From Leucobacter ruminantium (GTDB taxonomy: Bacteria > Actinomycetota > Actinomycetes > Actinomycetales > Microbacteriaceae): a stretch of 64,000 nucleotides of DNA. The translations under genes and the position numbers were made by a program. The stretch is from the NCBI RefSeq assembly GCF_017565705.1, contig NZ_JAGDYL010000001.1, forward strand, positions 62,001-126,000. The letters are read 5' to 3'. Under the pieces are notes generated by a model. It was not told the DNA's origin and made no database searches. It was given only the letters and a program-made list of their open reading frames with translations. This document shows positions 34,261-57,628 of this stretch, one piece after another. Numbering within the stretch: the first letter of the stretch is position 1; the number at the start of each line of letters is the position of its first letter.

Positions 34261-34542
34261 TCAGGCGAGGCGGCCGTGAGCGCGCGCCTTGGGGCCGAAG
34301 CGCTCGCCGATCGCGATCTCGAGCATCTGCTCCCCCTCGCCGAGGGCGTTCTCGAGCAGTCCTATGGCGCGCTCGCTGCCGCGCAGCACGATCGTGAGCT
34401 CGTGCTGCGCAGGCACCCGCTGCTCGTAGGCGACGGCCTCACCCTCTCCGTCGCGCTGCTCCTCGCGCAGAACGTCGAGGATGGCGCGGCGCACCAGGTC
34501 CCTCACTTCGCCCATCTCGCTCAGCTCATTCATGCGAGCCAC
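34261..34542 (-). CDS. Small protein with targeting-peptide-like N-terminal helix
   Basis: 93 aa, family not recognised. It opens with an amphipathic helix, MGEVRDLVRRAILDVLREEQ, resembling encapsulation peptides that deliver cargo to bacterial microcompartments, followed by a small alpha/beta region (HELTIVLRGSERAIGLLENAL). Start is GTG 34542 or ATG 34533. It lies 52 nt behind the class-III PLP enzyme and 80 nt before argC, at the left edge of the microcompartment region, so a role with the compartment is plausible but unproven. Confidence 0.5.
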   Translation of the reverse strand: MARMNELSEMGEVRDLVRRAILDVLREEQRDGEGEAVAYEQRVPAQHELTIVLRGSERAIGLLENALGEGEQMLEIAIGERFGPKARAHGRLA

Positions 34543-34594
34543 CGCCTTTCTCGCCGTCCGTCTCGGCCGACCGCCGTCTCCATGCCCGCACTCC

Positions 34595-35941
34595 TCACAC
34601 GCCGACCCGGCGCACGACCCGCTCGAAGCTGCTCAGGAACCGGTCGGCGTCGGCGTCGTCGAAGACGAGCGGGGGCCGGATCTTGAGCACGTTGCCGTTC
34701 GGGCCCGCCGCGCTGATGAGCACGCCCTCCTCGCGCATCCCGTCGACCACCTGACCGGTGACCTGCGGGTCGGGGGTGAGCGCCGGATCGCTGCGACTGA
34801 ACTCGACGCCGATGTAGAGGCCGGCGCCGCGCACGTCGGTCGCCCGCCCCGCGCGGGAGAGGATGCGCTCCATCTCGCCGCGCAGGCGACGACCCTGGGT
34901 CGCGACGTTCGAGAGCACGCCCGAATCCTGCACGATGTTGAGCACCTCGTGCGCGGCGGCGATGCAGGCGTTGCCGCCGCCGAAGGTGTTGAAGTAGGGC
35001 ACGCGAGCCCCGAAGTCCTCGAAGAGGTCCCACTGGCCGACCACGCCTGCGACCGGCAGACCGTTGGCCATCGGCTTGCCGAGGGTCACGAGGTCGGGGA
35101 GGATGCCGAAGCGCTCGTAGCCCCAGAGGTGGTCGCCCGTGCGCCCGAAGCCCGACTGCACCTCGTCGAGGATGAACAGGCCGCCGGCTCGCCGCACCAC
35201 CTCCGCGGCGCGGCGCAGCACGCCGTCGTCGGCGGGGTGGATGCCGTCGGTGGAGAAGACGCCGTCGACGATGAACGCCGCGAGGCCGACGCCGCGGCTG
35301 GCCAGGTCGTCGATCTGCGCCTGCACCTGCGCGGCGAACCACTCGCCGAGATCGATCCCCCGCATGCGGTAGGAGTCGGGGGCGGGCACGAGGCGCACGT
35401 CGCGATCGAGGATCGTGCCGGGGCCGCCCGCGGGCGAGAAGCTGCTGACGAGCGAGGTGTTGCCGTGGTAGGCGAACTGCGAGGCAATGATGCCGTTCTG
35501 GCCGGTGACCTGGCGCGCCACGCGCACGGCGAGGTCGTTGGCCTCCGAGCCGGTGCACACGAACATCGCGCGGTTGAGGGCCGGGTGGAAGGTGCTGAGC
35601 AGCGCCTCGGCGTAGGCCACCACCTCGTCCTGCAGGTAGCGGGTGTTGGTGTTGATCATGCTGAGCTGATCGGACATCGCCCGCACGACCCGCTCGTTCG
35701 CGTGGCCGACGCACGGCACGTTGTTGTAGGCGTCGAGCAGTTCCTCGCCGCTCGCGTCCCACAGCCGCGTGCCCTTGGCGCGCACGGGATGGACGGGGCG
35801 GCTGTACTGCAATCGGTAGCTGGGGCCGAGCAGTGCGGAGCGGCGCTCGATCATCCGCCTGGTCCCGCCGTCGACCAGCGAGAGATCCTGCACGCTGTTG
35901 ACGGTGACGGCGTCGAAACGGGCCGGTGCCTGTCCACTCAT
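34595..35941 (-). CDS. Class-III aminotransferase-fold PLP enzyme, probable amino-alcohol-phosphate phospho-lyase
   Basis: 448 aa. Class-III signature: CTGSEANDLAVRVARQ, YHGNTS, and the PLP lysine in LVTLGKPMANGLPVAG with FILDEVQSGFGRTG before it. The family includes 4-aminobutyrate aminotransferase and the phospho-lyases that split ethanolamine phosphate or 1-amino-2-propanol phosphate to aldehyde, ammonia and phosphate. Three APH-fold kinases, RidA and an aldehyde dehydrogenase nearby favour the phospho-lyase reading (inference). ATG at 35941 with GGAAG upstream; three copies of the CAACCATTTA-type operator lie directly upstream. Confidence 0.8.
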   Translation of the reverse strand: MSGQAPARFDAVTVNSVQDLSLVDGGTRRMIERRSALLGPSYRLQYSRPVHPVRAKGTRLWDASGEELLDAYNNVPCVGHANERVVRAMSDQLSMINTNTRYLQDEVVAYAEALLSTFHPALNRAMFVCTGSEANDLAVRVARQVTGQNGIIASQFAYHGNTSLVSSFSPAGGPGTILDRDVRLVPAPDSYRMRGIDLGEWFAAQVQAQIDDLASRGVGLAAFIVDGVFSTDGIHPADDGVLRRAAEVVRRAGGLFILDEVQSGFGRTGDHLWGYERFGILPDLVTLGKPMANGLPVAGVVGQWDLFEDFGARVPYFNTFGGGNACIAAAHEVLNIVQDSGVLSNVATQGRRLRGEMERILSRAGRATDVRGAGLYIGVEFSRSDPALTPDPQVTGQVVDGMREEGVLISAAGPNGNVLKIRPPLVFDDADADRFLSSFERVVRRVGV

Positions 35942-35977
35942 ATTGCTTCCGTTCTTCCCAGGGGTCCGAAACCCATG

Positions 35978-36010
35978 CAACCACACATTGCAACCATTTA
36001 CAACCATTTA
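35978..36010. promoter_or_regulatory. Operator cluster (CAACCATTTA x2 plus CAACCAC)
   Basis: CAACCATTTA occurs twice in direct tandem (35991-36000, 36001-36010; 10-bp period) with a related CAACCAC at 35979-35985, 38-70 nt upstream of the class-III PLP gene. The same half-site recurs upstream of other units of the region. Confidence 0.6.
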
Positions 36011-36089
36011 TTGCGACGGCGAGGGATCCGTTCCCGGCGCCGCCGGGAACGCGCGCAACGGGCATGTCGCCCGCCGCGTCCGCGAGGGA

Positions 36090-55357: not shown

Positions 55358-55390
55358 AAGTTCGTCCTTTCGAAGTGAGGAGCGCGCGTT

Positions 55391-55448
55391 CCCTGAGCCT
55401 GTCGAAGGGATCGAGTGCTCCGTCCCGCCCCCTTCGACAGGCTCAGGG
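55391..55448. repeat. REP-like inverted repeat CCCTGAGCCTGTCGAAGGG
   Basis: 19-bp perfect arms (55391-55409, 55430-55448) with a 20-nt loop between prpD and prpB. The arm sequence CTTCGACAGGCTCAGGG is a repeat I know from many high-GC genomes; it may stabilise or attenuate the operon mRNA. Confidence 0.7.
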
Positions 55449-55466
55449 GGCGGGCTCGGGAGTGTC

Positions 55467-56990
55467 CTAGAACAGACCCTTCGGGGCGGCGGCGAGGTCG
55501 AGCAGACCCGGCTTGGCGACGATGTTCAGCTCGCGCACCTCGTCGGCCGAGAGCTCGGGCAGGCGCTGCACGAGGTCGAGGAAGCGCTCGATCTCGGCGC
55601 TCTCGAGCACGGGCTCCGCCAGCAGGCGGAACTTCGCGATGTACTGCTCGCGGGCGAAGGGCCGCGCGCCCAGCGGGTGCGCGTCGGCGACGGCGATCTC
55701 GTCGACGAGCTTCGTGCCGTCGGCGAGCTCGATCTCGACGCGGCCGCCGAACGACTTCTCGTCGGGATCCTCGGAGTGGTAGCGGCGCGTCCACTCGGCG
55801 TCCTCCGCCGTGGTGATCTTGTGCCAGAGCTCGACCGTATCGGCGCGTCCGGCGCGCTCGGGGGCGTAGGAGTCGACGTGGTGCCAGCCGCCATCCTGCA
55901 GCGCGACCGCGAAGATGTACGGGATCGAGTGGTCGAGGGTCTCGCGCGAGGCGGTGGGGTCGTACTTCTGCGGGTCGTTCGCGCCCGAGCCGATCACGTA
56001 GTGCGTGTGGTGGCTCGTGTGCAGCACGATCGCCTTGATGTTGGCGGGATCCGCGAGCTCCGGGCGCTCGTTGTGGAGCTTCCGGGCGAGGTCGATCCAG
56101 GCCTGGGCCTGGTACTCGGCCGAGTGCTCCTTGGTGTAGCTGTCGAGAATGGCGCGCTTCGGCTCGCCGGGAGCCGGCAGCGGCACGTCGTAGGAGGCGT
56201 CGGGGCCGTCGAGCATCCATGCGATAACGCCGTCCTCACCCTCGTAGATGGGCGACGGCGAGGTCTGGCCGCGCATCGCGCGGTCGACGGACTCGACGGC
56301 CATCTTGCCCGCGAAGGCGGGGGCGTGAGCCTTCCACGTCGAGATCTCGCCCTTGCGGCTCTGACGCGTGGCGGTCGTGGTGTGCAGGCCCTGGCCGACG
56401 GCCTGGTAGATGGTCTCGGCGTCGAGGCCGAGGAGGGTGCCGATGCCGGCAGCGGCCGACGGGCCGATGTGGGCGACGTGATCGATCTTGTGCTTGTGCA
56501 GGCAGATCGAGCGCACGAGGTCCATCTGGATCTCGTAGCCGGTGGCGATGCCGCGCACGAGGGCTCGGCCGTCCGACCCGACGTGCTGCGCAACGGCCAG
56601 GATCGGAGGGATGTTGTCACCGGGGTGCGAGTACTCGGCGGCGAGGAAGGTGTCGTGGTAGTCGAGCTCGCGCACCGCTACGCCGTTGGCCCACGCCGCC
56701 CACTCGGGGCTCGACTTCTCGGCGGCGAGGCCGAAGATGGCGGATCCCTCGCCACCCGTCGAGACGGGGTGCGAGAGCGCCTGCGCGCGCGCCGCGACGA
56801 TGGGGCCTCGGTTGAGCGACGCGGCTGCGACCGAGGCGTTGTCGATGATCCGGTTGATGATCATGTCGACCACATCGGGCTCGACCTCGACGGGATCGGT
56901 GGCGACCTCCGCGATCTTCCATGCGAGCTGCTGCTCGCGGGGCAGATCTTCTTCGCTCTTGTAGACGCGGACGTGGTGGTTGACGGTCAT
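55467..56990 (-). CDS. prpD: 2-Methylcitrate dehydratase (MmgE/PrpD)
   Basis: 507 aa. MmgE/PrpD-family signature regions: [67 protein letters not shown] patch (split: [30 protein letters not shown]). Dehydrates methylcitrate to cis-2-methylaconitate. Its start overlaps the GntR stop (ATGA). Confidence 0.94.
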
Positions 56991-57628
56991 TGCTGTCCTT
57001 CCGGGATGGAGTTCAGGATCGAGGTGAGTGCGTGATGCAGGTGCACGTGGGTGGCATGGGCGGCGAGGTCGGCGTCGCCCGCGGCGATCGCCCCCGCGAT
57101 GAGCGCGTGCTCGGAGACCGAGGCGACGAGCCGCTCCTGGTTGTCCCTCGCGAGCCTCCTGGCGCGCGAGAGGTGGGTGCGCACGTTGCGCAGGGCCTGC
57201 ACGAGGTAGACATTGTCGACGGCGGCATCGATAGCCGCGTCGAAGCGGCCGATGAGTTCGTAGTAGGCGTCGGTCGCGAGCTCCCCGCGCTCGGGGTGCG
57301 CCTCGGAGAAGGCGTCGGAGAGCTCGGCGAAGGCGTTGCGATCGCCGCGCTCAGCGGCGATCCTGGCGGCGGTCTCCTCGAGCGCGCGCCTGGCCTCGAA
57401 GAGGTCGCGGATGTCGTCGGTGTCGAAGCCGGAGACGACCATCACGCGCGGGGACTGCTGCAGGATCAGCCCATCGGAGACGAGCCGGCGGATCGCCTCG
57501 CGCATCGGCGTGCGGCTGACCCCGAGCCTCGCGGCCTGCTCGACCTCGCCGACCACGGTGCCCGGTGCGAGTTCACCGCGCTGGATCTCCTCCAGCAGCG
57601 TCGTGTACGCCCGGTCCCCCGCTCGCAT
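56987..57628 (-). CDS. GntR-family regulator (FCD domain) of methylcitrate operon
   Basis: 213 aa with N-terminal winged helix ([21 protein letters not shown]) and all-helical FCD domain ([40 protein letters not shown]). First gene of the operon and coupled to prpD, so it probably controls it. Two identical CGTATACA boxes lie upstream. Confidence 0.9.

Follow-up and report, generated by a model that had tools for sequence, protein, structure and literature searches.

We know of ethanolamine breakdown in bacterial microcompartments (BMCs) only by way of the B12-dependent ethanolamine ammonia-lyase. Also already known are RMM microcompartments, which we take to be the aminoacetone or 1-amino-2-propanol microcompartments that carry the label AAUM as well. 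Aminoacetone or 1-amino-2-propanol is the substrate proposed for them in the portions consulted of four publications (PMC8156839, PMC8007038, PMC6787980, PMC6620236). Rhodococcus jostii is listed among the RMM carriers by a source whose consulted text does not discuss a difference in enzymes (PMC4207490). Here we describe a locus in a 64,000-nucleotide stretch of DNA (the window) from Leucobacter ruminantium contig NZ_JAGDYL010000001.1 (assembly GCF_017565705.1), wherein all coordinates below are positions in that stretch. This locus is probably an inserted island that encodes a variant RMM-shell microcompartment, in which the signature enzyme has been exchanged for a phospho-lyase of the ethanolamine-phosphate type and for which ethanolamine is the most probable substrate. 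Judged from its sequence, a phospho-lyase variant of the RMM microcompartment appears to be new. A literature search, outside of which most subscription papers fell, returned nothing that joins a microcompartment, ethanolamine and a phospho-lyase, and nothing that joins a microcompartment with pRHL2, the R. jostii RHA1 plasmid that carries a related locus.

Shell genes and signature enzyme

Thirteen genes form a run on the minus strand that reads from position 44452 down to 34261. It begins with two kinase-like genes, kin1 and kin2, and continues with a CoA-acylating aldehyde dehydrogenase (AldDH; 40790..42316) that bears a C-terminal encapsulation peptide and whose nearest matches are acylating acetaldehyde dehydrogenases. 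Next are the shell protein BMC-T1 (40182..40790; 294.9 bits to the RMM shell protein 5l39), a 142-amino-acid protein that is conserved in RMM loci (39757..40185), the vertex protein BMC-P (39452..39760; PF03319), the shell proteins BMC-H (39181..39462; PF00936, 98.8 bits) and BMC-T2 (38474..39178; no Pfam match, and 187.3 bits where the CcmP model requires 340), and kin3, an APH kinase of the RMM type (37462..38469; PF01636). From AldDH to kin3, adjacent genes overlap or lie no more than 4 base pairs (bp) apart. The run closes with genes for a GntR/UTRA regulator that has homologs in RMM loci (36588..37331; profile match), a RidA-family enamine/imine hydrolase (36090..36479; PF01042, 83.1 bits), a class-III pyridoxal phosphate (PLP) enzyme (34595..35941; PDB and profile matches) and a 90-amino-acid protein (34261..34533). 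The initial annotation, which was made from the sequence alone, had called the shell RMM-type, and the set of two BMC-T proteins, BMC-H and BMC-P together with an acylating AldDH in the RMM order supports that call. Every gene class that it named (shell, AldDH, kinases, class-III enzyme, RidA, amidases, importer and prpC/prpB/prpD) was recovered by profile searches. Genes beyond its list encode the GntR/UTRA regulator, a HAD hydrolase, a MarR regulator, the 142- and 90-amino-acid proteins and an FCD-GntR regulator.

We compared 37 loci, namely the window, 29 genome loci, six from Nocardioides and Pimelobacter, and G1107; L003 is G767 by identity, so 36 of them are distinct. The 29 genomes were taken from 31 other genomes with AldDH matches, with G498 and G1055 left out. 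Setting aside the window, its relative G845 and G424, which has another BMC type, leaves 34 canonical RMM loci. The G424 locus (L095/L096) is a non-RMM microcompartment with an AldDH (38%), two BMC-H matches and one BMC-P match. In L003, the region upstream of the canonical locus (1874-5791) reads, from the sequence starts, as genes for a small membrane protein, a transporter, a hydrolase and a further short-chain dehydrogenase/reductase (SDR), the second there.

A class-III enzyme with 66-100% identity to that of L003 is present in all 34 canonical loci and absent from the window locus. Equally absent is a dehydrogenase present in all 30 of the loci whose contig reaches it (the contigs of G1001, G871, G513 and G804 end earlier), and there is no counterpart at the window locus of the amino-acid permease found in 31 of the 34. 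The canonical dehydrogenase matches PDB entries 6ci8 (357 bits) and 6ci9 (355 bits), which were deposited as a 3-oxoacyl reductase and which we take to be the 1-amino-2-propanol dehydrogenase of Mycobacterium smegmatis. For the canonical class-III protein, the nearest match is a putrescine aminotransferase (190.5 bits), and there is no phospho-lyase among the best 60 of its 158 PDB matches. A search of the whole window genome found no ortholog of either protein: the best matches were 33% and 36% identical and no row exceeded 38%, whereas identity among canonical loci is at least 66% for the class-III enzyme and at least 61% for the dehydrogenase. Membership in the canonical RMM group was rejected on this ground. 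The retained enzymes are divergent as well, with median identities to the canonical proteins of 48% for AldDH and 39% for kin3, compared to 63% and 54% among the canonical loci themselves. Of the 162 AldDH columns that are nearly invariant in the canonical set, 20 are changed in both the window and G845, including a few near the presumed catalytic cysteine; the corresponding count for kin3, in the window alone, is 22 of 88. The AldDH changes are suggestive of a changed aldehyde, an interpretation that calls for a structure.

The class-III enzyme found instead gives 341.6 bits to the Arthrobacter phospholyase 5g4i and 276.5 bits to ETNPPL (6tor), versus 158 bits to 4-aminobutyrate (GABA) aminotransferase. 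A GKPM motif, whose lysine is presumably the PLP lysine, is aligned in the window enzyme with the phospho-lyases. The initial view that this protein is not a GABA aminotransferase thus stands, and that assignment is ruled out by sequence. The amino-alcohol-phosphate route that was proposed at the same time (kinase, class-III phospho-lyase, acylating AldDH) is likewise supported by the gene families, which make it a plausible prediction. Its presumed substrate, 1-amino-2-propanol, has lost ground, since no ortholog of the RMM dehydrogenase or class-III enzyme was found in the genome and the substitute groups with ethanolamine-phosphate phospho-lyases. Outside microcompartments, a phosphotransferase gene is immediately followed by a phospho-lyase homolog in Chelatococcus and Shinella (L218, 5883-8263; L219, 5893-8308), but the kinases there show only a weak resemblance to kin3.

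The signature swap is common to the window, G845 and plasmid pRHL2 of R. jostii RHA1. For the G845 class-III enzyme, 5g4i ranks first and ETNPPL second in the PDB, and pRHL2 also encodes a class-III enzyme of the phospho-lyase type, as well as a kinase that is a kin3 homolog (41% identical). In the AldDH tree these three form a clade with support of 100/100, apart from the 33 canonical rows, and the same trio is recovered in the BMC-T1 tree (100/99). The permease of the RHA1 locus matches TIGR00908, the ethanolamine permease model, with 503.7 bits (cut-off 381.75), and the one canonical RMM permease tested, that of L003, has no match to this model at E 1e-10. A wider search for the variant in 59 genomes in the genus of G845 found one other locus, which is canonical, and a search of 286 genomes of the phylum gave two other matches (L204 in G1145 and L205 in G1357) with an AldDH that is 37-38% identical. 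On pRHL2 there are two copies of a four-gene cassette (BMC-T, small protein, BMC-P, BMC-H) with shared protein accessions (L206, 19409-21005 and 23302-24898), one on each side of BMC-T2 and the phospho-lyase.

To rank candidates for encapsulation, we took the AldDH C-terminal peptides of 22 distinct canonical sequences, without the window and G845, and derived a weight matrix from them. Among the called window proteins AldDH scores 22.3 bits, the 142-amino-acid protein 12.0 bits and the 90-amino-acid protein 8.5 bits, a value reached by about 1% of shuffles. The third rank is weak because the next scores, 7.2 and 5.6 bits, belong to internal stretches of unrelated proteins. In the 142- and 90-amino-acid proteins the peptide-like segment is a predicted N-terminal helix. 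The 90-amino-acid protein is encoded just downstream of the phospho-lyase and has no family match, and its AlphaFold model is of low confidence (pLDDT 61.8; helix at 3-28); it is possibly an adaptor for its neighbour, or a cargo. The C-terminus of the G845 phospho-lyase scores 26.9 bits (0 of 1000 shuffles), second in its neighbourhood after AldDH, and the last 30 residues of the RHA1 phospho-lyase are identical to those of the RHA1 AldDH. Thus, the phospho-lyase is very probably encapsulated in G845 and RHA1, and by analogy we infer the same for the window enzyme.

The island and the methylcitrate operon

The remaining genes of the island lie on the plus strand. They encode amidase 1 of the amidase signature family (44614..45990; PF01425), a HAD-family hydrolase (46016..46708), a three-gene ribose-type ABC importer comprising a substrate-binding protein (47199..48215; PF13407), an ATPase (48264..49772) and a permease (49811..50848), a MarR regulator (50925..51467) and amidase 2 (51654..53093; PF01425); the hydrolase, ATPase, permease and regulator were assigned by profile matches. 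Beyond them the strand reverses again for prpC, prpB and prpD (53227-56990) and an FCD-GntR regulator (56987-57628), a minus-strand block (53227..57628) that profile matches and synteny assign to the chromosomal backbone. PrpC and PrpB exceed their curated cut-offs, and PrpD, with 869.7 bits, stays below its cut-off of 950.

The limits of the island between argC and prpC, which has no strand of its own, are 34235..53225, give or take about 20 bp. They come from blastn searches of four sister argC-prpC intervals against the window, wherein similarity ends at 34231 (three intervals) or 34234 (one) and returns at 53226-53246. About 19 kb in the window therefore occupies the place of 0.9-5.5 kb in the compared sisters, and its insertion beside a resident prp operon is the simplest account. 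The island ends share only 9-bp words, which chance alone would produce in such DNA, and there is no tRNA gene in the window.

Among the 54 genomes of the genus, the L. ruminantium genome included, prpD is present in 49 and argC in 52, and the BMC AldDH is present in one. A search of 299 genomes of the family found only four other AldDH matches, 35-36% identical and inside open frames of more than 900 codons, which we read as AdhE. Of 47 other genus genomes that have both argC and prpD, 25 have them within about 10 kb, seven far apart on one contig and 15 on separate contigs, so that adjacency is common in the genus and not universal. In each of the 14 genomes inspected among those 25, argB, argJ and argC are followed, after an interval of 0.9-5.5 kb, by prpC, prpB, prpD and the FCD regulator. 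The interval holds a gene for a protein of 258-281 amino acids in all 14, presumably an enoyl-CoA hydratase by a motif seen in the three that were translated.

The methylcitrate genes thus most likely predate the arrival of the island, and as backbone genes they say little about its substrate. The initial annotation had read a propionyl-CoA pathway from the link to the methylcitrate genes. That argument falls with the genus counts (prpD in 49 of 54 genomes versus the BMC AldDH in one) and with the many sisters in which argC and prpC are neighbours, and we dropped it on the basis of this synteny. The prp neighbourhood may nonetheless be favourable for the host. The accompanying statement that this is a wider module than the standard locus is borne out by the gene content, as prp genes, RidA, amidase 2 and the importer occur within 13 kb of AldDH in none of the 36 other loci, and amidase 1 only in G845.

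Proposed pathway and alternatives

Upstream of AldDH, kin2 (42585..43511) encodes a kinase of the choline/ethanolamine-kinase family (PF01633, 64 bits; PDB 3dxq). It shares its strand with kin1 (43508..44452), and both head toward the AldDH gene with a gap of 268 bp between kin2 and AldDH. The kin1 protein has no Pfam or PDB match of its own and aligns over its full length with APH-family homologs, with the catalytic motifs lost. These motifs are replaced (GEG..SN and GWG) in four of the 16 kin1-type genes inspected, those of the window, G351, G384 and Arthrobacter U41. Thus, kin1 is unlikely to be an active kinase. The motif scan of the plasmid copies is rough, since its pattern had no hit to the first motif in five of the 11 genes and none to the second motif in one. 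An AlphaFold model of it from a single sequence was unusable (pLDDT 37). Its conservation in other respects makes it possible that kin1 and the intact kin2 act as a pair of pseudokinase and kinase.

The kin1/kin2 module is found near the variant compartment in G845, where the genes are arranged differently and kin3 was not found. Copies of the module with no shell genes were seen in G351, G384, G967 and 11 plasmid loci, the latter examined from 84 plasmid records with kin2 homologs. EutB/EutC follow the kin2 homolog in two of the 11, Agrobacterium A47a (by family models) and Paracoccus yeei (by annotation). On these Agrobacterium and Paracoccus plasmids (L208, 10970-15915; L211, 6045-10034) EutB/EutC come immediately after the kinase pair, apart from an intervening hisN in L208, and there are no shell genes in the stretch inspected. 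A set of glutamine synthetase, gamma-glutamyl hydrolase and AldDH lies near the module in G351 and in Arthrobacter U41 (one of the 11 plasmid loci), and a copper amine oxidase lies beyond a divergent regulator at the G967 module. In eight of the 11 plasmid loci no amine-consuming enzyme was recognised within 7 or 12 kb on each side, as read from an incomplete gene table. An annotated allophanate hydrolase or a urease cluster is located near two kin2 modules (L210, 10864-12651; L216, 8579-14008), which is a hint of ureido compounds. Taken together, the RHA1 permease and the kin2 neighbourhoods favour ethanolamine, if not decisively. No EutB or EutC was found among the 30 frames (30411-61285) scanned with Pfam, the part of the genome that was searched for them.

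In the pathway that we propose, the ABC importer would bring in a small amide or amino alcohol, which the amidases would trim. Then kin3, kin2 or both would phosphorylate the amino alcohol, which is most probably ethanolamine. From its family, the class-III enzyme is expected to eliminate phosphate and ammonia to yield an aldehyde, which would be acetaldehyde if the substrate is ethanolamine. The shell AldDH, whose peptide is seen in the sequence, would then convert the aldehyde to an acyl-CoA. RidA fits this scheme because such a lyase is predicted to release an enamine or imine, the hydrolysis of which RidA would speed. With ethanolamine as substrate the product would be acetyl-CoA and the prp genes would be unneeded. 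We give even chances to the proposition of a B12-independent ethanolamine microcompartment, wherein an RMM-lineage shell was re-purposed by phospho-lyase replacement and the AldDH peptide was copied onto the enzyme in some lineages. On this view the amidase and kinase front end of the window might supply phosphoethanolamine straight from an ethanolamide-like compound.

Several observations weigh against these proposals. Branches in the AldDH tree are long, a situation in which the tree tool cautions that groupings can be spurious; the BMC-T1 tree leaves open whether the trio belongs outside or within the canonical rows. The window phospho-lyase is 53-54% identical to its BMC relatives and 52.6% identical to a non-BMC Chelatococcus enzyme, and it lacks an encapsulation peptide (-2.3 bits). 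The nearest PDB entry to kin3 is 6ef6 (205 bits), which we take to be the (S)-1-amino-2-propanol kinase of M. smegmatis. Neither the kin1/kin2 module nor the amidases were found in the 37 kb of RHA1 searched, and G845 has an SDR beside its amidase, though not the canonical SDR. EutB/EutC adjoin kin2 in only the two plasmid loci named above, and no amine-consuming enzyme was recognised at the G384 module. Finally, the island holds no gene that we recognised as a phosphotransacylase or an alcohol dehydrogenase, so that the scheme does not account for cofactor recycling.

The RMM lineage of the shell and kin3, together with the prp genes that adjoin the island, raises the alternative that the compartment still uses 1-amino-2-propanol, with kin3 and the phospho-lyase providing propionaldehyde, AldDH forming propionyl-CoA and the resident methylcitrate operon consuming it. 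Class-III phospho-lyases could plausibly accept a methylated substrate. However, no ortholog of the canonical dehydrogenase or class-III enzyme was found in the genome, the prp genes are backbone, AldDH and kin3 are outliers from the canonical sets, and the RHA1 locus carries an ethanolamine permease, all of which makes this alternative the less likely one in our view, though a serious rival. An ordinary aminotransferase acting outside the shell is far less probable still. Such a role would suit the missing encapsulation peptide of the window copy and a family described, in the part of a source that was consulted, as consisting mostly of aminotransferases (PMC8154272), but bit scores are about two-fold higher for the phospho-lyases and the enzyme bears an encapsulation peptide in two relatives.

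A different question is whether kin1, kin2, the amidases, the HAD hydrolase and the importer form a catabolic unit of their own that just happens to lie on the same island, which we consider doubtful while granting it slightly more weight than retention of 1-amino-2-propanol. The shell-free modules of G351, G384, G967 and the 11 plasmid loci speak for such a unit, as do the absence of the module from the RHA1 stretch searched and that of the importer and amidase 2 from the 36 other loci. Set against these are the presence of the module near the variant compartment in G845 and the common direction of kin1, kin2 and AldDH across the 268-bp gap. A separate unit would be compatible with the exchange of the signature enzyme that we favour for the shell itself.

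Comparison with known systems

If the ethanolamine proposal is correct, a shell with a kinase and a phospho-lyase would constitute a second solution to ethanolamine breakdown. It would also illustrate how a compartment changes substrate, wherein the shell and AldDH are kept, the signature enzyme is swapped and a targeting peptide is attached. The RHA1 phospho-lyase, which ends in the last 30 residues of AldDH, looks like a direct record of the attachment step. RHA1 itself is a common laboratory strain. The pRHL2 locus (NC_008270.1, about 398991-411732) resembles the window in its AldDH and BMC-T1 clade, its phospho-lyase-type class-III enzyme and its kin3-type kinase, and differs in having the shell cassette twice, the peptide on the phospho-lyase and an ethanolamine permease.

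By sequence, the 6tor and 5g4i enzymes belong to the same class-III subgroup as the window enzyme. To our knowledge they are not shell-associated, whereas the window enzyme is encoded in a shell operon and two of its relatives carry shell-targeting tails. The clusters of a kinase pair, a Zn-hydrolase and ethanolamine ammonia-lyase on the Agrobacterium and Paracoccus plasmids share with the window a homologous kin2 beside a second phosphotransferase, but there EutB/EutC follow and no shell genes are present in the stretches considered. The EUT microcompartment resembles the predicted function of the window locus, in which ethanolamine would pass through acetaldehyde to acetyl-CoA inside a shell, and the window BMC-H is EutM-like (113.7 bits, below the cut-off of 133). 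It differs in its B12-dependent deamination, which the kinase and phospho-lyase would replace in the window.

The RMM/AAUM microcompartment has in common with the window the shell protein set, the order AldDH, BMC-T1, small protein, BMC-P, BMC-H, BMC-T2 and kinase, a GntR regulator and the encapsulation peptide of AldDH. The canonical class-III enzyme, the 1-amino-2-propanol dehydrogenase and the amino-acid permease are present on the RMM side only. In contrast, the window has a phospho-lyase of another subfamily, RidA, the kinase pair, the amidases and an ABC importer, and its AldDH falls in a separate clade.

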